From the NCBI GenBank assembly GCA_025642065.1, contig JAODUP010000517.1, forward strand, positions 336,501 through 400,500: 64,000 bases of DNA, in the 5' to 3' direction. The notes beneath the pieces are model-generated. The model saw only the letters and a list, made by a program, of their open reading frames with translations. It was not told where the DNA came from and did no database searches. The translations under genes were made by a program, and so were the position numbers. This DNA comes from Paralvinella palmiformis (taxonomy: Eukaryota > Annelida > Polychaeta > Terebellida > Alvinellidae). This document shows, in pieces, positions 19,032-52,516 of this stretch. Position 1 is the stretch's first letter. Each line of letters begins with the position of its first letter.

Positions 19032-19627
19032 CAGGGAAGGAGTTTACTAGTTTAACCTGGCTTAAAATGGGGTTTTCTCAGAATACAGTATATTGACTCA
19101 CAAATCCATACATTTTATGCACATGAACAGTAGTTGTTTGGTATGCATTTTAAAGATGTTGTTAAGATGCTGACAATTTACACTAATCAACATAATCTAA
19201 TATATGAGATATTATGCTGTTGGTGGAAACAATTAGACACTATTACACTGTACTAATTATATAAGATGTCAAGAAAAAATGTAAGGGCGTGAATCTTGGT
19301 CAATGTGATCTAGCCATTATGCTGCTCCATCTTCCATCAAGTTCAGCCTCAATCGATAGGATTTTCTCCAACTTTGATATGCAGCTTGGTTTGGAGAAAG
19401 CAGTCAAGCTTGTCTCTAGCTATAGTGAACTTCGTGGGGGTGCTGAATGAGACTGGTGAATATCTGAACACTTTTGTTATTGTTTTGTGCAGTATATTGT
19501 TATTTGTGTGCTCAATATAGACAATAAATGTATAATTTGCATTTAGTTGGTTTTCTTGAATCAATTAGTGGTTTTTAGTCCAAAATGGGGGTTTAGCCCA
19601 GCGGTGGGGTTAAACCTGCCAACCCTG
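19032..19627 (+). mobile_element. Non-autonomous hAT element 1 with perfect 8-bp TSD
   Basis: Begins CAGGGAAGGAGTTTA and ends TTAAACCTGCCAACCCTG. Both ends carry the hAT tip CAGGG with GG next to it, and GTTTAACC follows on both arms; the left arm then has GGCTTAAA and the right arm GGCTAAAC. It is flanked on both sides by GTGCACAC. At 596 bp it is far shorter than an autonomous hAT (usually 2.5-5 kb), and it keeps only the transposase C-terminus. An AATAAA at 19,523 follows the stop codon. Confidence 0.85.
19289..19450 (+). pseudogene. hAT transposase C-terminal dimerisation domain fragment
   Basis: The open frame to TGA at 19,448 reads QCDLAIMLLHLPSSSASIDR, then IFSNFDMQLGLEKAVKLV and SYSELRG. 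This is the hAT C-terminal dimerisation region (LP-SSASIERIFSNFG ... LGLEKA-KLV-Y--LRG). The usual stretch of about 10 residues between SNFG and LGLEKA is shortened. The RNase H-like catalytic domain and the zinc finger are absent from the 240 bp between the left tip and this domain. The product could at most be a dimerisation peptide. The frame end and polyadenylation signal suggest it is the original 3' end of the transposase gene. Confidence 0.8.
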
Positions 19628-32430: not shown

Positions 32431-32659
32431 ATTTGTCTCTATATAAACAGGTTGACGAGCCAATCCAAAGTTCGCAGTTGATCATACGTCACAATACCCT
32501 TTGAAGTGACAGCTGTCAATATCTACTCTACCATCTCCAGGTGTTTCATGCGAAAAGATGGACAAAACAGATGGTGGCTGTGATAAAACAAAGACGATTA
32601 TTCTAGTTACTGTTCAGTGTGCTTGGAGTTATCCAATAACTCAGTAAGAAGTAATATAC

Positions 32660-32989
32660 ATGTTTGCTTTGAAAATTAATACTACTCAAGACATCTCAAC
32701 ACAAGATGAGTGTTCTGTTGTTGTTAGATATGTTGATAGCGCTGGCATCATCCAAGAAAGAAGAGTGGGTGTGGAGAAATATGAAGAATCTACAGGTAAA
32801 GCTTTTGTGCAACTTGTTTCGGAAGTCACGTTAGGGCCGAATTTTGACCTAAAAAAATATGTTGGAAACTCACCTGGTAGTGTAGCAAACATATTGGAGC
32901 GTTACAAAAGCGTCAATACTCTACTATCAAAGCAAACTCCAATGAAGATTCACGTCTTGTGCTCTGTATATGAGTTAAATCTCAAATAA
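32660..32989 (+). pseudogene. hAT transposase DUF4371-type core fragment
   Basis: A 109-codon open frame. Residues 20-32 read VVVRYVDSAGIIQ; ERRVGVEKYEESTGKAF and LKKYVGNS follow, ending in IHVLCSVYELNLK. This matches the DUF4371/ZMYM1-like hAT core (VVIRYVD..G.IQERF.GF......STGKA, LKNCVGN-TDGAANM-G-Y-G, IHVWCYAH-LNL). The usual DGAANM, which holds a catalytic aspartate, is replaced by GSVANI, and CYAH by CSVYE. The frame is open but should be inactive. No zinc finger or dimerisation domain lies nearby, and no tips were found. Confidence 0.7.
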
Positions 32990-33589: not shown

Positions 33590-35352
33590 AGTTCCGGGAG
33601 AGCGATAATTTTCTCACCTCTTCATAGTCTTATATTTATAACTAAATCTCGTAATATTTTTCTTACTATTTGTATACTACTAGCAGGTGACATCCATATG
33701 AATCCACGCACAGTGTTTAAACCAGCCTCACTTACGTAAGGTTTCTAAACTGATGTTATCGTCCCCTAATAAGTCCTGTCAACTTGATCCTATCCCTACA
33801 TTTCTACTAAAATATTGTAACTAATTGTTCCAGTTACTAAGATAATAAATTTACCACTAAGCTCCGGAGTGTTCCCTTCTCATTTTAAACGTGACCGTGT
33901 AAACTCTCTTCTTAACAAATAATTTTTACTACTCAATGACATAAACAGTTATAAACCTATTTTTAATCTATCATTCATAGCTAAAGTATTAGAAAAAGCC
34001 GCACCCTGTCGTTTGAACGTTCACTTAAACTGTAATCACCTGTCTAATGTTTTTCAGTCTGCTTACAAACAATTTCACCGATCTACTAAAAGTTCATAAC
34101 GACATATCACTAAAAATGGACACAGGAAAGGTCACAGCACTAACACTTTTAGATTTATCTACAGCTTTTGGCATCATTGATTATTCTGTTCTTCTAGATC
34201 GCCTCTCTGATTGGTATGGCATACCAGGCACAGCACTCACCTGGATCCACTCATTATTAATAAATAGGTTTCAATCAATAAAAATAAGAAAATGTTTTTC
34301 AAAGGTAGTACCTTTGTTTTGCGGTGTTCCCCAAGGCTCTGTTCTTGGATCACTACTGTTTACTCTGTATACCACATTGCTAAGCTCACGTCTTCACAGC
34401 CATAAATTAGACCATCATTTATGTACAGATGACACCCAAGTATACATATCTTTATCTACACCAGACACTGATCTCTCCCTTAAACAACTTGGTGACCGTC
34501 TCAGTGATATCTCTGGCTGGGTGACAAACAATAAATTATATATACATCCAGACAACGCAGCAAACTTACTCATTTCTTACCCCCGAATATCCTTAGTCAA
34601 AGCATCACACCATCAGACACTGTAGGTAATCTTGGTGTTACATTTGATAGTGATTTTAATTTCAGAAAACATGTTTCTCTAACATGTCGCTGCTGCTTGT
34701 ATCATATTCGTGACCTTCACCCTATTCGTCGTTATATTTCTCTTTCAGTTGCCAAAACCATTGTTACAGCGTTCATTACTAGTAGACTTGATTACAACAA
34801 CTCTATTCTTTATAACATTGCATCTAAAGATATTCTAAACTTTCAATGTGTTCAGAATTGCTTAGCTAGGGTTGTCACACGGTCTATTCGGTTTTCCCAT
34901 TTTGTCCCATTTCTGAAATATCTTCAAAGGCTCCTTGTTCAATCTCGCATTATTTTCTTACTCTGCACTATTGCCTATCAAACTCATTATTCTGGATAAC
35001 CTTCATATATATTTTCCATACTTTATTTACCGCCCAAACACAGAGAGCTCCGTTTATCTGGTTGTCACTTGTTGTTTGTTCCTAGGGTTAAAACTCATGA
35101 TGGGACTCGTGCTTTTTTCAGTTGCTGTCCCTACTCTTTGGAATTCACTCTATGAACATGTGAAGTCATCAAATAGCATAGTTTCTTTCTGTCACCATTT
35201 GAAAACTCACGTAAGTTTCTTTGCCATGTGATCATTGCTGATTAACTTTGCATCGTACTCGGACTATTAGCTTGGTCAACCCCTGTACTAGGTAGCGCCA
35301 CTGAGCTCGATTCTATTCGAGGATATTGGCGCTATAGAAGTTTTGTAATTAT
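33590..35352 (+). pseudogene. LINE family A, copy 1 (APE-type non-LTR retrotransposon, internally deleted)
   Basis: This is the remains of ORF2, the reverse transcriptase/endonuclease polyprotein. The 5' part reads KSRNIFLTICILLAGDIHMN (33,646-33,705), a hydrophobic segment plus a decayed 2A-like motif. It then jumps straight to TVFKPASL, which in copy 2 lies between endonuclease and RT, so the endonuclease region is missing. RT follows with frameshifts: FQSAYKQFHRST, LDLSTAFGIIDYSVLLDRLS, CGVPQGSVLG, and LCTDDTQVYISL (the catalytic YADD is now CTDD). After 34,625 it continues in other frames with FITSRLDYNNSILYN, AVPTLWNSL and LKTHVSF. The 3' UTR ends in GGCGCTATAGAAG and ATTATTATT at about 35,352. 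Not functional. Confidence 0.85.
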
Positions 35353-39996: not shown

Positions 39997-40244
39997 AACA
40001 GTATAATATAACAGTATAATATAACAGTATAATATAACAGTATAATAACAGTATAATATAACAGTATAATATAACAGTATAATATAACAGTATAATATAA
40101 CAGTATAATATAACAGTATAATATAACAGTATAATATAGCAGTATAATATAACAGTATAATATACAGTATACTATAACAGTATAATATAACAGTATAATA
40201 TAGCAGTATAATATAAAGTATAATAACGTAACAGTATAATATTT
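39997..40244. repeat. 13-bp minisatellite AACAGTATAATAT, about 19 copies
   Basis: Near-perfect 13-bp units with a few variants (AGCAGTATAATAT, shortened units). It lies 45 bp from the AT tract that holds hAT element 3. Confidence 0.93.

Positions 40245-40285: not shown

Positions 40286-40342
<57 letters not shown>
40286..40342. repeat. (AT)n microsatellite, left flank of hAT 3
   Basis: AT run directly bordering the element. The matching run on the right starts at 41,645. Confidence 0.95.
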
Positions 40343-40346
<4 letters not shown>

Positions 40347-41641
40347 GGTTTTATGACAGTCATAAACCCGTCGTAAACCTGTCGTAAATACTTACATGAC
40401 GTCATATACCACCGTAAATTGTCATAAACTGTCGTAAACCTTTAATCACTATATTCTATGATTTTATTTTTACAAACATGACTGTAAAATAATAGTTTAT
40501 GTTGGTCTCTTACATTTTTTTCCAATTCGGTAATAACAAAAACTAATTTGGAGAGCTCTTTTATTCAGTAACCAAAACATAATCTCACATCTTTCACACA
40601 TGTGCAATTGAATCCGTCCATTTGATACGTTAATACTGCAAATCACAAAGTCCTCGGAGGATGCTGTGATAAAATACCAGCTTGGCTGTTTTCTCATTAC
40701 CAGGCTTATTTTAGTGTGGATTCCACCAAAGCTTAAAAAAATCCTTTCAATGGATGCTGAAGAAGCAGGAGCTGACAATAACTGAAGTGACAGTTCCACA
40801 TAGTAGTCATGTGGCAAACCACATTTCTCTACTGCTTTCAACCTGGAGACAGCTGGCACATTCGGCTCATTGTGGATGTTGGACCACCAATCCTGAACCA
40901 ATGTAGCAGTCTTACCACTAACACTGTCCCTCCCATCCTGTGTGAGCTGGTCATGCACATTGTCCAGCAGTATTCTACCGATGGCTTTACGACTTGGTGG
41001 TGGGTAGCCTGGTCGGAGCAGCTGGAGCAGCTGTTAGGTGAGGGTGATATGGGCCTATTTTGGATGATATTGGTGGATGCTACTTTTATCACTCACTATC
41101 TGTGGCTGGATTGTGTAGTTTAGCACACACGGAATGGTGACTTCTCATTCTATCTGGACTGGGTGCTTGTTGATGACAACATATCTTGCAATTAGCATGA
41201 ACCTTACCATCAACTGTCACTCTATGAAAATATTCCCAGATGGAATGTGAAGGGCTACCACCCTTGAATGTATTACATTATGACTCAAGGTCTATTTTCC
41301 CCTACCTTATATCCACTTTGGTTGTAATGGACTAATAAGATATCTTGAGCTCTTGTCACATGGAAGATCACTAAGTGAAACCACTGTCACTGCATGCATG
41401 GTCAACAACATACACAAACAAGCACCAACCCAAAAGCGCTAACAATAAATAGCAGACCAATCAAGTCAATTGATTTTTGCTACAAACAACACCAGTGTAT
41501 GATTACCATAATATCAAAATGTGCTTTTGACAGTTTATGACAAGCTCATATCATAAACCGTTATAAACCTGTTTATGACATGACGTCATAAACCCTGGAT
41601 TAATCCACGGTTTTTGACATCGTGTCATAAACTTCCCAACC

Positions 41642-41644
<3 letters not shown>
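40343..41644 (-). mobile_element. hAT element 3, internally deleted, inserted in a TA microsatellite
   Basis: The right end on the reverse strand is CAGGGTTGGGAAGTTTATGA, a typical hAT tip. The left end, AGTTGGTTTTATGACAG, is a shorter version that has lost the first bases. Both subterminal regions are full of GTCATAAAC/GTCGTAAAC words, and both contain ATGACGTCATA. Both flanks are AT repeats, so an 8-bp duplication ATATATAT is expected but cannot be distinguished. Length is about 1.3 kb. Confidence 0.8.
40497..41285 (-). pseudogene. hAT transposase with catalytic core deleted (BED finger fused to C-terminal domain)
   Basis: Read on the reverse strand. 41,280-41,092 encodes WEYFHRVTVDGKVHANCKIC, then PDRMRSHHSVCAK, a BED-type zinc finger (W, C-x2-C, H...C). 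A stop at 41,089-41,091 and a frameshift precede a second open frame from 41,033. That frame starts LRPGYPPPSRKAIGRILLDN and continues SGKTATLVQDWWSNIHNEP, the region that follows the finger in full-length enzymes. It then passes directly into LSLQLLSAPASSASIERIFL and the rest of the C-terminal dimerisation domain, ending at 40,497. Several hundred residues of RNase H-like core, including the DDE residues, are missing between NEP and VPAVSRLK, with the frame preserved. Confidence 0.8.

Positions 41645-41692
<48 letters not shown>
41645..41692. repeat. (AT)n microsatellite, right flank of hAT 3
   Basis: AT run beginning at the base after the element's CCCTG end. Confidence 0.95.
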
Positions 41693-44061: not shown

Positions 44062-46385
44062 ATAATAATAATAATAAAAAACTCATTCACCAATAGTATT
44101 GGAAGCGAATCAAGCTCAGTAGCGCACCTAGTATAGGTGTTAAGCAATCTGATAGTCAAGGTATACTATAAAATTCATCAACAAATTATCGGATGCAGTG
44201 AAAACATCGGAGGGATAAGCACGTTCGAAACGGTTAGTTTTCAAACACTGACGGAAAGAAGCTGCGCTATTTGATGATTTAAGATATTCAGGTAGTGAGT
44301 TACAAAGAGTAGGGATGGATTTAAGCATGGGAACAGACTGCAACGGAGCTCTCTGGGCCTGGGTGCTAGAGAAAGTATGGGCAATATATACGAAGGTTCT
44401 CCGGAAGACAGTGTTTGATTGGCAATGGTACAGAGTTTGAAAATTATGCGAGATTGAACAGGAGTCAATGAAACGATTTCAGAAGTAGGACAGAATGACA
44501 AAAACCGAGGAGACCGTGTGACAACTCTAGCTAAACAATTCTGAACACACTAAAGTTTTGCAATAGCCTTAGATGTGATGTTATAAAGAAGAGATTTGCA
44601 GTAAACAAGCCTACTGGCAAATGAAAGTGAAACCTGGCGATGAATACGGCGAAGGTCAAGAATATGGTGTAAGTAGCAGCGACATATCAGAAAAATATGT
44701 TTTCTGAAATTAAAAGCTATAACCATTGTAAGACTAAGATTAAATACATCTTGTGAAGGCGTGATACTGTGATAAAAGGTGGGTGTAGGGAAGAAACGAT
44801 TAAGTTGGGAGCACCTAGAGATATCACTCAGACAGTCACCTAGCTGTGTAAGAGAAATATATGTGTCTGCTGTAGATACAGATATTTATATAGGGTGTCA
44901 TTTACATATAATAAGGATGGTTTATTTTGTGGGTGTGAATAAGAGAGCTTAGTGGTGTAGCAACTGTCCAAGAACAGAGCCTTGTGGAACACCTCAAAAC
45001 AAAGTAACTGCCTCTGAAAACTGCCCAATATGTTATACTAATCAGAGAGGCCGTCTAAAAGAATAAATAACCAATAGTACAAAACACTGCAGATAAATCT
45101 AATAGTGTTAGTGCTGTGACCTTTCCTGTGTCTATGTTTAGTGATATGTCGTGAACCTTTAGGTAGTGTTGGTTGAGTAGTGTTTGTAGAGTGAAATTGT
45201 TTGTAAGCAGACTGAAAATTAGATAAGAGATTATAGTTTACGTGAATGTTCAAACGACAGGATAAGGCTTTTTCTAATACTTTAGATAGGAATGATAGAT
45301 TAGAAATAGGTCTATAGCTGTTTAGATCGTTGACTAGTATACATGGTTTCTGAAGAAGGGGTTTACACGGGTATGTTTGAAATGAGAAGGGAACACTCCA
45401 AAGCTTACTAATGCATTTATTATCTTAGAAATTGGGATACTTATCGCGTGAAGAAGGGAATTATGCATCCAGTAGGGATAGGATTAAGTTCACAGGACTT
45501 TTTATGGGATGATAAATAGAATTTTGGCAACTTGAGAAAGTGAGGCTGGTTTAAATACTGTGCAAGGGTGATGTACAACTGGAAAATCAATATTACAACT
45601 TGAGGCATAACCTGGAAAAGAAGCACGAATGTTGGTGATTTTATCCATGAAATATCTGAGAAAAGAACTGCTAAATGAATTGGTCGAATTATGAGCTGGC
45701 AGAGAAACAATAGTCTTTCTATGGAGAGCCCCATTTATACATTTCCAGCGTTGTTGGAGATCATGTTCCAAATCTAGACCTGATATGTTGTGTGTGTGTT
45801 TTCCCATATGCTTTCTAAATAGCTTAAAGCATTAATATACTTTAGTATTAATAATATCAGGGGGCATCCAGGTTTGAGGTGGTTTAACTAATTGTGATCT
45901 GACAGGTGTGTATTTACCAAATAACGATTTAAGTGTAGTGTGGTATTGTTCACATAATTATGATAAGTCGGCTTTAGGGTTGGTGATAATTTCAGATTTT
46001 ACTCCGTCCTCAATCGATTCAAGAATGTCAATATTGTGAATAAGCCGATAAATAATATTACACATAGAGTCTATTGGATTATACTTGATTCTATTTCTGC
46101 CATGACAGTGAAATGATCGGATAAAACGCATGTGGCAGTTAGTGTATGAATATATTTAGGGGTGAACTGGGTTACGGCGAGATCAAGTGAGTGACCACAA
46201 ATGTGTGGGCAGAACGAAACATGTGTTTTGGAGTCAAAAGATGTTAAGATGTCATTAAATGTGGATGTAGTAGCAGACTCTGTATCCAAATGTAGGTTGA
46301 AATCACCAAAGATGAAAAATTCAGGATGGATAGTTACTAAGTTTTCTAGTAAATCATAAATATATAAAGGTATTATAATTAGAAA
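44062..46385 (-). pseudogene. LINE family A, copy 2 (5'-truncated in the endonuclease domain)
   Basis: Read on the reverse strand. It starts near 46,385 inside the APE endonuclease: HPEFFIFGDFNLHLDTES, then HICGHSLDLAVTQ and LSDHFTVMAEIE, i.e. the GDFN and SDH catalytic motifs. A linker follows (45,807-45,502, with SFSSSFLRYFMDKI and TVFKPASLSQVAK). Frameshifted RT pieces come next: SCELNPIPTG, NYNLLSNFQSAYKQFHSTN and LALARV-type remnants. The C-terminus has VQSRIIFKLCTIANQTLSSG, PRELRC and SNSAASFRQCLKTNRF. The 3' UTR shares CTATACTAGGTGCGCTACTG with copy 1 and ends in a TTATTATTATT tail at 44,062. There are many stops and frameshifts, and the RT catalytic motif region is too decayed to read. 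Dead copy. Confidence 0.85.
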
Positions 46386-46399
46386 TATAATTTTGTGGC

Positions 46400-47320
46400 C
46401 ATGAGTTTTGAATTTCTTCTTTTTAGTAATGTGGCTTTTTTATTTTTTAGAAACGAAATGACTAAATAACGAAATGTTGCCAGTTAAATAAGTCGTGATA
46501 GAAGATCTTTAAATGAGGTGTGCTCCATCAAAGACCACACAAGATGGTGTATTTTGAAGAAGATAATTCATCTTCTGTTATTATATATAAATAATATATT
46601 GATTAATACAAGCAGAATGAGGCGACGTCAAGGAATCTGACATATACCAGTCCAAGTCAAAAATGATACCTCACGGCATGAGTGATTGTCTCATTGAACT
46701 AAAGTGCTATTAACAGGTGACACCCATGACTGATGGGTTACTATATACTTTTATAATATTATCATACCGAATAATGTCACAGAAAGATGAATATCCTCCA
46801 GCATTGATAATACAGTGACTCGATTCCATGTCATGTAGATAAATATTACAAAATGCCACTAAATATATACAAAACACCATCCTATAATTGAAATATGAAA
46901 TCTCACTTATGGCTACAGTAAACAAATATGACTTCTTCAAACCAATAATATGGCTATAGTTGATCCAGAACAAATCTTCGTCTCCATATTAAATGTTTTC
47001 TTCAGGATGAGGATAAAGTTGAACGAGATTGGGTTTGAATCTAGTTTTTATATCTTAAATTGTGTCAATTCTACGTGAATCATTTTGTATATAAATATTC
47101 TCCTTACTACCGTGAAGCTGATCTTTTAGAATATGTTCGGCTAGAAACAAAACAATACATAATCGAAACTACAAATGTAAATATTCAATTATAAGATAAT
47201 CATATCCGTATTGTCACATACGACAATAATAGATAAAGGGGATTCTTTCATTTCTATTTATGTAATTAGTGGGAGAGAACGAATCGCGGAATTAATTTAT
47301 GTACATTTTATAAAAAGAAT
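46400..47320. other. AT-rich non-coding stretch
   Basis: Nothing recognised on either strand. Confidence 0.5.
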
Positions 47321-49349: not shown

Positions 49350-50515
49350 ATGACTGAAGAAAGGTTTAAGCGAGATCTCTATGGGTGGCATGATCAGTGT
49401 AAAAAGTATTTTATACACAAGGATGATTATTTTCACATGTTTGAAGAAATCAAGACTGCAGGACAGAATCCCAAAAAGAAAAAGCAGACAGGAGTACTAC
49501 CTTCTATCCAAGTAATTTATTAGTGCTTCAATTCTTAAATATTCAAGATCTAATTCTTAAGGATTCAATGAAATAGCTAAAATTATTAGGGAAATATAGG
49601 ATGATAAAGCTGGCTTTCTTCTTTTTCAGAATCCATTCAAATCAATGGCACTGCAAAAATTATTAAACCAAATTCGATTTTTAGTTATGAAGTTCTACAG
49701 TGTGGTGGCGTTGAGAAGCTTGTCAAGAAACGAAAAAGTGTACATGAGACAACTGTCTACTACGTTATTATTGAAGATATCTTCAATGGAATGAAAAGAG
49801 CCATCCATGCAGACTGAACAGCAAGTCCAAGAAGAAGGTGTCACACATCATGTTCTGTCAGTGACCTCTTCTGCAACAACGGTACTGAATATGGTCATGT
49901 CGCATTCACCATCATATGACACCCTGCACCATTTTCTAATCCTCTGCCATTGACACCTGTAAGATGTTCATCAGACTTCGTTTCTGCACCAACATATGTC
50001 ATGAAACGGCTCGAGAGTATTCACGAACATCGTGCAGGTGCAAAACGAGCACAAACTATTCAGGCCGAACGCATGATTAAGCGCAGTCGAATTGACCATC
50101 AAGTGGGAGACAATGTTCCTGTACCTATTCCACTTGTTGACAGGGGTAGAGGAGGTAGAGGAGATTCCTCGCATATCCTTGGACTGATATCATGTCACAA
50201 TCCAGAAAAAAAGATCTGTACAAAATATCAGTCAGAGATGGTGTCTTGAAAGGACATTTCTCCAGGAATCAGTTTCAACTGTGCCCACAGAAACCTCTTA
50301 CATAAACAGATGTGAGACAAGATGAGTGAGGCACTGTCACTCCATGAAGCAGTTACAAAACAGTCAAGGTATGAAGAACAAGGTTTCACAAAATGCAATT
50401 GTGGAGCCAAAAGGTGTAAAACCAATATGTGTAAGTGCTTTAAGGCATAAGTGAAGTGTAACAGCCATTGTCACTCATCTCTGTCGTGCCACAACAAGTC
50501 AATATTTTCTGGACG
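49350..50515 (+). pseudogene. KRBA2-like (GINGER-related) integrase gene remnant
   Basis: ATG at 49,350 opens TEERFKRDLYGWHDQCKKYF and DDYFHMFEEIKTA. After a one-base frameshift, RQEYYLLS leads to a likely intron (GT 49,512 to AG 49,684). The next exon reads NYEVLQCGGVEKLVKKRKSV and YYVIIEDIFNGMKRA. KRBA2-like proteins have this N-terminus (YYLLKKYEVLQCG.EKLIKKR ... YYV.IED.F..I..AH). The integrase catalytic core that should follow is absent. The sequence resumes at 49,950 with SIHEHRAGAKRAQTIQAERM, then IKRSRIDHQVGDNVPVPIPL and VDRGRG. After more frame breaks it gives VRDGVLKGHFSRNQFQLCPQ and a Cys-rich tail CNCGAKRCKTNMCKCFKA. Known relatives come from DNA transposons or genes domesticated from them. 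LINE B adjoins its 3' end. Confidence 0.7.
49512..49684 (+). other. Likely spliceosomal intron in the KRBA2-like remnant
   Basis: Donor AA|GTAATT and acceptor TCGATTTTTAG|TTATG. Removing these 173 bases joins YYLLS to NYEVLQCGG in frame and restores the family motif YYLL-KYEVLQCG. An alternative acceptor, CTTTTTCAG at 49,629, would give a stop. Confidence 0.5.
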
Positions 50516-50535
50516 TTTCATACATTGTAAAAGTA

Positions 50536-52516
50536 TTGTATCAAGCTGACAATACTAGGTTAAAAGTAAACAATGAATTACGTGCATGGCACAACAAGGT
50601 GGATCACTATGATAGTACATTGAGAGATATTGTGGATGCGCATGCACCTTTAAGGACAAAGGAAATACCAAGAAGATCAATGCTTCCATGGTACAATAAG
50701 AACATACAGGCTGCAAAGAGAAAGAGAAGGTATTGTGAGCGGCTGTGGATCAGGACCAGTTTGTGTGTTCATTTTAAAATGTTCAAGGTCAGTAAAATTC
50801 TTGTTAAAAATACCCCTGCCTCTGCTAAATCTGAATATTATAATAAAAAGACCAAAGCCTCCAAGGGAAATCAAAGGACTGTTTTCAGTGTTGTGAATAA
50901 AGTATTACATAAAAGTGAAACTGTCCTTCCAAATAATATCAACTCAGCTAAAGATATGGCCCATTGTTTTAATAACTTCTTCTGTCAAAAACTATTTAAT
51001 ACATAGTCGGTTCCCTTCCAACACCTTATCACAGGGTAAGACATTGGTAGAAGAGTCCTGCATATCCATGATGGATACATTTGAGACTTTTACAGAGACT
51101 GATATCAGACAGTTGCTGAAAAGGTCATCTAATGCTTTCTGTGCAGTTGACCCTATGCCTACATGGCTTGTGAAAGATTGTCTGGATATTCTGATAAGCC
51201 CAATTACAAATATAATTAATCAATCATTATCTCTGGGTGATTTTCCAAGATCGATGAAAGTTGCCCTTGTAAAACCATTAATAAAAAACACACTATGGAC
51301 TGTAATATTCTAAACAAGTACAGACCTGTTCCAAATCTTACATTTTTATCTAAGGTTATAGAAAGGGCAGTTGCTTTCCATCCAAACAAATATTTAATTA
51401 ATAAAAACCTTAAGGAATTACTACAGTCTGCCTATAAAAGTGGTTACAGCACTGAAACAGCTTTGGTTAGAGTGAAAAATACTTGTTCTTCTGGACCTGT
51501 CTGCTGCATTTGATACAGTTGACCATAATGTACTTTTCTCTAGGTTAAAAGACATGTTTGGTCTCTCAGGTAAAGTACTTTAGATCCTATCTGGAAAAAA
51601 CACTGTATGATATGGGGTTAAATATCATTTATATACTGATGACACACAGCTGTATATATCACTGGATCCTGATAATGAGTTAAATTTCTCCTCCTCCTTG
51701 AATAATTTAGAAGATTGTATTGCTGATATTCGGCTGTGAATGACTCAAAATCTTCTAAAACTAAATGATAATAAAATAAGTATTATATATTTGGCATCAG
51801 CACATTGTGTTAAATGCCGAGCTGCCTACTGCCATCTTAATAACACACACTGTTTAAAAGCATTCTTGACACAAGAATCACTTGTAACTGTAGTCTATGC
51901 CTTTGTTACATATCGTATAGACTATTGTAACTCCCTTTTATATGGCACATCTAATTATAACATTAATCGCATTCAGCGAATTCAGAATAGTGCAGCTCGC
52001 ATTGTAACAAATACTATAAAATATGATCATATCACCCCAATTCTTCAAAAACTACATTGGCTACCTGTTAGACAGCGTATCCATTTCAAGATTTACTTAA
52101 TAACTTATAAATCTATTAATGATATGGCGCCAGAATACCTGTGTGAACTGGTGTCCATTAGAAAGTCATCTAGAAAACTCAGGTCATCCAGTCAGATACT
52201 ATTGCAGGTGCCAGTGTCTCGGCTCAAGTCATATGGTGATTGTCTATTTAGTGTTGTTAGCCCCCACTTTGTGGAATAGGTTGCTGGTAAATAGTAAAAA
52301 TGCGTCGTCTCTTGAAAATTTTAAGTCTCTTCTAAAAACACAGCTATTTAAGGTCGCTTTCACAGATAAATAATTATTATCTTTTAAATAATTACAGGGT
52401 TTTTACAGACATATTATTTGGGGTATTATTATATTAATATTATTTGTACAGAGCCTTTGAATGGCTCCTGCTAGTAAGGGCGCTTTATTAAATATACATT
52501 ATTATTATTATTATTA
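50536..52516 (+). pseudogene. LINE family B, main copy (5'-truncated, RT palm deleted)
   Basis: Jockey/CR1-type ORF2 remnant spread over several frames. 50,536-51,006 is the linker after the endonuclease: LYQ-like start, VDAHAPLRTKEIPRRSMLPW, then YNKNIQAAKRKRR. 51,040-51,313 is the RT N-terminus with VDPMPTWLVKDCLDILISPI and VALVKPLIKN. 51,300-51,510 gives NKYRPVPNLTFLSKVIERAV and LLQSAYKSGYSTETALV, then [20 protein letters not shown]. Near 51,600 the sequence jumps from FRSYLEK to YHLYTDDTQLYISL, so roughly 40 residues containing the GVPQGS motif are missing. YADD has become YTDD. 51,740-52,373 is the C-terminus, with YRIDYCNSLLYGTS, LHWLPVRQRI and LLKTQLFKVAF. The 3' UTR ends GGGCGCTTTATTAAATATAC and a TTA tail. 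Non-functional. Confidence 0.88.
52496..52516. repeat. (TTA)n LINE tail
   Basis: Six TTA/ATT triplets forming the 3' tail of LINE B. Confidence 0.9.

Follow-up and report, generated by a model that had tools for sequence, protein, structure and literature searches.

The fused open frame of a deleted hAT element

The stretch of DNA considered here, a window of 64,000 nucleotides from the annelid Paralvinella palmiformis (contig JAODUP010000517.1), contains on its reverse strand an internally deleted hAT element at positions 40343-41644, with tips at 41644 and about 40343, which sits in an (AT)n run (flanking AT runs at 40287-40343 and 41645-41692). Within the element lies an open frame at 40497-41033 (-), hereafter called the fused frame, which the initial annotation had taken for an in-frame fusion of the two ends of a hAT transposase and a natural candidate for a dominant-negative repressor. 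The frame is indeed open over 178 codons plus stop, with its first Met at codon 113 (40697), that is, beyond the fused parts. Its codons are of mixed origin: five precede LRPGY, 52 constitute a genuine N-terminal part (LRPGY...HNEP; 40863-41018, -), eight form a frame-shifted bridge, about 44 constitute a genuine C-terminal part (KAVEKCG...SASIERIF...IHTKI; 40707-40837, -) and 69 belong to a tail (40497-40706, -) in which the transposase C terminus and 3' region are read in the wrong frame. The N part contains the presumed first catalytic Asp in QDWWSN (QDGWSN in the family), and the C part the final catalytic Glu within a truncated hAT dimerisation region, a region marked by the SASxER motif.

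Relatives were searched with residues 201-330 of a longer read-through (the fused part), candidate lengths being set to those of full transposases. All 24 relatives found contain PF04937 (DUF659), and 15 of them also PF05699 (hAT dimerisation) in precomputed annotation. Both LRPGY...HNEP and KAVEK...IHTKI are homologous to hAT transposases, as originally proposed. In an alignment of the window frame with 13 of the 24 relatives, the region from NEP to KAVEK is present in all 13, and a frame-shift-aware alignment gives it a length of about 295-305 residues in P0012, P0014, P0015 and P0016. The two parts are thus separated by the catalytic region in full-length relatives, and a deletion has therefore occurred, as had been suspected.

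A profile built from the 13 relatives and the window row matches the hAT transposase Hermes (PDB 4d1q, 2bw3, 8edg) with an E-value of 1e-12. Hermes has five key residues, namely D180, D248, R318, W319 and E572 (PMC6027215). When positions are counted along the printed alignment (chains 4d1q and 8edg being offset by 76), E572 is matched by the Glu of SASIERIF (i-Evalue of the stretch, 1.3e-08) and, in a weak stretch with an i-Evalue of 0.22, D248 by the Asp of TDNAKN and R318-W319 by TRW. The Asp of DGWSN probably represents D180, judging from order and spacing rather than from that alignment. Of the catalytic residues, the fused frame hence retains the first D and the last E, but the parts carrying the equivalents of D248, R318 and W319 are gone; the catalytic core had been described as lost, which is true for these three residues only. 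Searching solved structures with only the fused frame as query produced no useful match. No relative was returned by scans of viral contigs with the fused frame, P0008, a subterminal palindrome and the junction, nor by a scan of genome contigs with the alignment of the relatives.

The two genuine parts had been said to be joined without a frame break, which proved incorrect. The main deletion junction, at a GGTGGA repeat that reads GGTTGA in the window copy (40838-40843, -), shifts the frame, and a 1-bp loss turning GTGGCC into GTGCC (40855-40862, -; near 40857, about 15 bp upstream of the junction) shifts it back. The window frame reads across the junction because the lost base cancels the frame shift of the latter, and this loss is found in the window copy alone among the copies compared. 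In the frame-shift-aware alignment with eight relatives, about 20 bases of the window past NEP still align to VASCLQV, though with the frame shifted, so that the apparent NVPAVSRL is the wrong-frame reading of VASCLQV. A second frame shift past IHTKI is uncancelled, the matches of the relatives continuing in another frame from 40,710 to 40,633; the dimerisation domain is therefore truncated, and the final 69 codons do not represent transposase. From about 40707 onwards the frame no longer follows the transposase, so that RNRLG...KLVFCYRMLRG is missing, and the Pfam model Dimer_Tnp_hAT scores 15.4 bits on it, below the cut-off of 21.4 bits; the C-terminal dimerisation domain is accordingly not preserved as had been supposed.

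Upstream of the fused frame there is a remnant of the BED region, 62 codons long (41089-41277, -), that ends in TGA at 41,091-41,089. Its stretch 41268-41119 (-), in a frame other than the fused one, matches the N-terminal BED region of the relatives, in partial agreement with the BED finger previously assigned here, although a Pfam search of the 62-codon piece by itself yields no BED domain. The remnant has no Met at the position where relatives start with MFKGG or MNKGG, and a stop and a frame shift separate it from the fused frame, as already noticed in the initial annotation. The linker between the BED stretch and LRPGY has been lost in the window copy, with the deletion point at 41029-41030 (-): of the 11 other loci that are informative, 10 have an additional 87-164 bases at this point, and in L014 the linker is spanned by a single match holding about 50 extra bases.

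The deletion junction in the genome

In the genome (594 Mb, 2597 contigs), 858 candidate copies were found, of which 40 including the window copy were scored, and all 40 were fetched. Eighteen of the 39 other loci are informative at the main junction; eight of these span it in one match and ten carry extra DNA, amounting to 761-889 bp in seven loci and to 128, 264 and 1127 bp in the remaining three. In five loci (L019, L023, L024, L030 and L034) the undeleted parental sequences can be read as CTCCAGGTGGATAAC on the left, where one base upstream of the shown stretch differs in some copies, and ATGGTGGAAGG on the right. The two GGTGGA copies stand in different phases, CAG-GTG-GAT (QVD) versus TGG-TGG-AAG (WWK), and joining them therefore shifts the frame.

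The window junction is common to six of the 39 other scored loci, L009, L010, L011, L013, L015 and L031, with several substitutions in L011 and L013; it is hence not unique to this locus and represents more than local decay. L012 and L016 also span the junction but carry different deletions. Six bases that follow the ATA of HTKI in L012 and L016 are absent from the six siblings, and the window copy lacks seven there; together with the common junction, this six-base loss points to a single origin of the deleted element. A genome-wide search for the junction pattern with up to three mismatches returned five places, corresponding to the window, L009, L010, L015 and L031, and none with the reversed control. 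The target-site duplications of the siblings match at 8/8 positions in L009 and L013, 7/8 in L010 and L011 and 6/8 in L015, none being seen in L031. Those of L009, L010, L011 and L013 are mutually different, and from these separate duplications it follows that copies moved after the deletion. Internal deletion with respect to longer copies in the same genome, combined with a junction common to loci with separate target duplications, identifies the element as a non-autonomous deletion derivative.

Sibling copies were also thought to be perhaps alive, but no open frame connects both parts in any of the six. In L009, L010, L011, L012, L015 and L031, NEP or its remnant is followed by ATTGTGGCC, where the window copy is one base shorter; in L013 only part of this spot remains. 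The N frame runs into VEGSREMWCAT* in L009 and L031 and into LEGSREMWCAT* in L010, or nearly so, ending nine codons after VE or LE, and in L011 it meets a stop just before the junction. The NEP stretch is lost or broken in L013 and L015. In L013 the first portion of the N part is in frame with the C part, yet the two are separated by a stop, and the stretch from DGWSN to NEP is missing. The in-frame fusion is consequently found in one of the seven junction copies. The longest transposase-matching frames in the 40 loci, of 416 and 143 codons, are two separate frames of L024 (G000:C1975:275600-280000). (The database protein P0001 carries the junction too, yet it resembles L009 so closely, by eye, that it was counted with this locus rather than as an independent second copy; P0007 similarly resembles L016.)

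The ends of the element agree with its assignment to the hAT superfamily, which combines a hAT-type transposase with short terminal inverted repeats (CAGGGTTGGC...CCCAACCCTG in the siblings) and 8-bp target-site duplications, matching at 8/8 positions in L034 and L036 as well as in L009 and L013; the window copy, for its part, lies in (AT)n. The 5' tip CAGGGTTGGG reported at 41644 is present and belongs to the 5' terminal inverted repeat CAGGGTTGGGAAGTTTATGAC (41624-41644, -), the commonest form of which among the fetched copies is CAGGGTTGGCAAGTTTATGAC; allowing for up to three mismatches, this left end occurs once in the window. The 3' terminal repeat (40340-40357, -) is eroded, reading GTCATAAAACCAACTATA here versus GTCATAAACCCAACCCTG in the family, with four of 18 bases differing, three of them in the last four. 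Each end bears a subterminal array of four GTTTAYGAC motifs, the left one at 41533-41632 (no strand assigned) and the right one at 40359-40439 (-). The motif has 11 matches in the 64-kb window against 1.21 expected, eight of them inside the element ends. Junction copies with both tips located are 988-1988 bp long, with coding remnants still inside.

Origin of the fused frame

We conclude with high confidence that the window locus represents a decayed member of a non-autonomous, internally deleted hAT family and that its fused frame is a product of chance. A longer hAT ancestor, with a BED region, a DUF659 region, a hAT dimerisation domain and 8-bp target duplications, lost about 760-890 bp between two GGTGGA repeats, probably through repair or replication slippage over the short repeat. 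This deletion shifted the frame and truncated the transposase shortly past the first catalytic Asp, and the intact ends probably allowed mobilisation by transposase made elsewhere. The deleted element then reached several loci, as the shared junction and the differing target duplications show. Later, the window copy underwent further internal deletions, the 1-bp loss realigning its coding remnants by chance, the second frame shift and the erosion of its right tip. Judging from its sequence, it most likely has neither a product nor a function today.

The possibility that the fused frame is a selected dominant-negative repressor, which would bind transposon ends and pair with active transposase without cutting, is favoured by the openness of the frame and from its joining parts of the first catalytic region and of the dimerisation region. 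The literature offers precedents: the KP elements of the Drosophila P transposon, which like the present family are short DNA-transposon derivatives that multiplied, have been reported to produce a protein with dominant-negative action (PMC6917496), and inhibition of a dominant-negative kind has been ascribed to inactive transposases more broadly (PMC2874221). Splicing from a GTGAGT donor might also link the BED frame to the fused one. Differently from KP, however, the shared junction is out of frame in the siblings and is bridged by a private 1-bp loss in one of seven copies; no ATG precedes codon 113, the BED stretch is in a different frame without its Met, and the dimerisation domain is truncated. 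Hence, in the unspliced sequence, a start codon leading into one open frame for DNA binding and pairing is absent, as is conservation of the frame among copies. Raw counts over the 51 codons of the N part, in which a change was considered private to the window when its base was absent from the eight other copies and these had a majority of at least 70%, gave zero synonymous and four non-synonymous private changes, one of the latter at the conserved G of DGWSN; there is therefore no sign of purifying selection. Altogether, a selected repressor is very unlikely, and the earlier observation and its interpretation hold in part only.

The founding deleted element might instead have encoded a short repressor, extending from the BED region to the first catalytic Asp and ending some nine codons past the junction, that occupied transposon ends. 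The junction is shared, the frame ends soon past it in L009, L010 and L031, several copies still show recognisable BED-side and N parts, and the amplification came after the deletion; but any deleted hAT element would look alike, and amplification requires intact ends only. Moreover, raw non-synonymous divergence (pN) exceeds synonymous divergence (pS) in four of the eight window pairs (L010, L015, L016 and L031), equals it in one (L013) and is below it in three. We thus give this possibility a very small chance. That some junction-sharing derivatives make a short BED-region protein blocking transposon ends, with the window copy a dead member of such a repressor family, is highly improbable; were a deleted copy found to have made a repressor, it would be the hAT counterpart of KP elements. 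Purely local decay at the window locus would account for the breaks at the BED linker, the 1-bp loss and the right tip, which do look private or rare, but it is exceedingly unlikely for the main junction, given that this is common to six loci, four with clear but differing target duplications.

Several observations weigh against a decayed element with a fortuitous frame. The comparison of copies rests on 40 of the 858 candidates, and the nine-copy tree is unresolved, so that the case for a single origin is based on the junction and the six-base loss that the siblings have in common. The fused frame is open even though the window copy has the longest end branch in that tree (0.11). Private window changes affect 25 of 521 aligned bases (about 5%), and in simulations with random substitutions the frame remains open in 27% of trials at 5% and in 8% at 10%; an open frame is accordingly mildly unlikely by chance, a weak point since the frame was picked for being open. 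In the three window pairs with pN below pS the values are 0.051/0.084 (L009), 0.118/0.144 (L011) and 0.084/0.145 (L012). By sequence alone there are also 55 phase-right GT-AG pairs, 17 of which connect the BED frame with the fused frame; the GTGAGT donor at 41096 with an AG acceptor ending at 41009 would give 227 open codons, still lacking a Met start. Splicing was set aside as an argument because it is too unspecific and because P0004 reads through the stretch of the GTGAGT donor without an intron.

The deleted, mobilised element also has parallels elsewhere. Ds-del elements of maize are internal deletions of Ac, of the hAT superfamily, and resemble the window element in being internally deleted and dependent on transposase made elsewhere (PMC3260210); the window element differs in its animal host, in belonging to another hAT lineage by its transposase relatives and in being decayed, with an eroded right tip. 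The Mar miniature inverted-repeat transposable elements of Drosophila form a non-autonomous hAT family that has been explained by internal deletion followed by amplification, with relic transposase copies present (PMC3517528), similar to the origin of the window family, whose junction copies with both tips still carry coding remnants at the lengths given above. The mode of spread of the window family is that described for Ds-del and Mar elements. Its significance beyond annotation is small, adding another internally deleted hAT family in an animal genome, with the caution that two cancelling frame errors can leave a lone transposon relic with a fused frame that is open, which siblings from the same genome reveal.

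Further breaks and other relics in the window

Other breaks in the window copy, with q positions counted from 41,644 downwards, have different distributions. Near q311, 51-272 extra bases are found in all 15 loci compared, near q377 56-553 extra bases in 17 of 18 loci (L014 spans the break), and near q1178 48-88 extra bases in seven of 11 loci, the other four spanning it. On these counts, the breaks at the BED linker, q311 and q377 are private or rare, whereas that at q1178 is common to some copies. Different internal deletions of the family may have right breakpoints clustered in some 60 bp that directly precede the dimerisation region, at 40809-40843 and in L012, L014, L016, L017, L018, L025, L029, L032, L036, L038 and L047; nine of these loci show matches starting again at q 819-861, although match ends are imprecise and may reflect divergence. 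A hairpin ATGTGG-TTTG-CCACAT (40824-40809) beside the right breakpoint was considered as the cause of deletion and rejected, since the 61-base stretch around it is hardly more stable than its shuffled versions (z of -1.06; 33 of 200 shuffles equalled or surpassed it).

Scans of the window for Rfam families and tRNAs gave no hits. A C-terminal relic of a related hAT transposase lies at 19274-19456 (+), with tblastn matches from 22 of 35 proteins (53% over 64 amino acids for P0022); its sequence differs from the element at 40-41 kb and has no Pfam match by itself. DUF4371 is a domain of hAT-like proteins, and a fragment at 32648-32986 (+) is weakly similar to it (PF14291, 6.7e-05, below cut-off). 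A reverse transcriptase fragment is found at 34029-34622 (+; PF00078, 2.9e-10), and the frames at 44143-46439 (-) and 50455-52276 (+) appear by eye to be other remains of long interspersed nuclear elements, two tested pieces of the latter giving no Pfam reverse transcriptase match. Finally, a 13-bp tandem repeat, AACAGTATAATAT, is present in 19 copies at 39997-40242, about 100 bp from the right end of the element.
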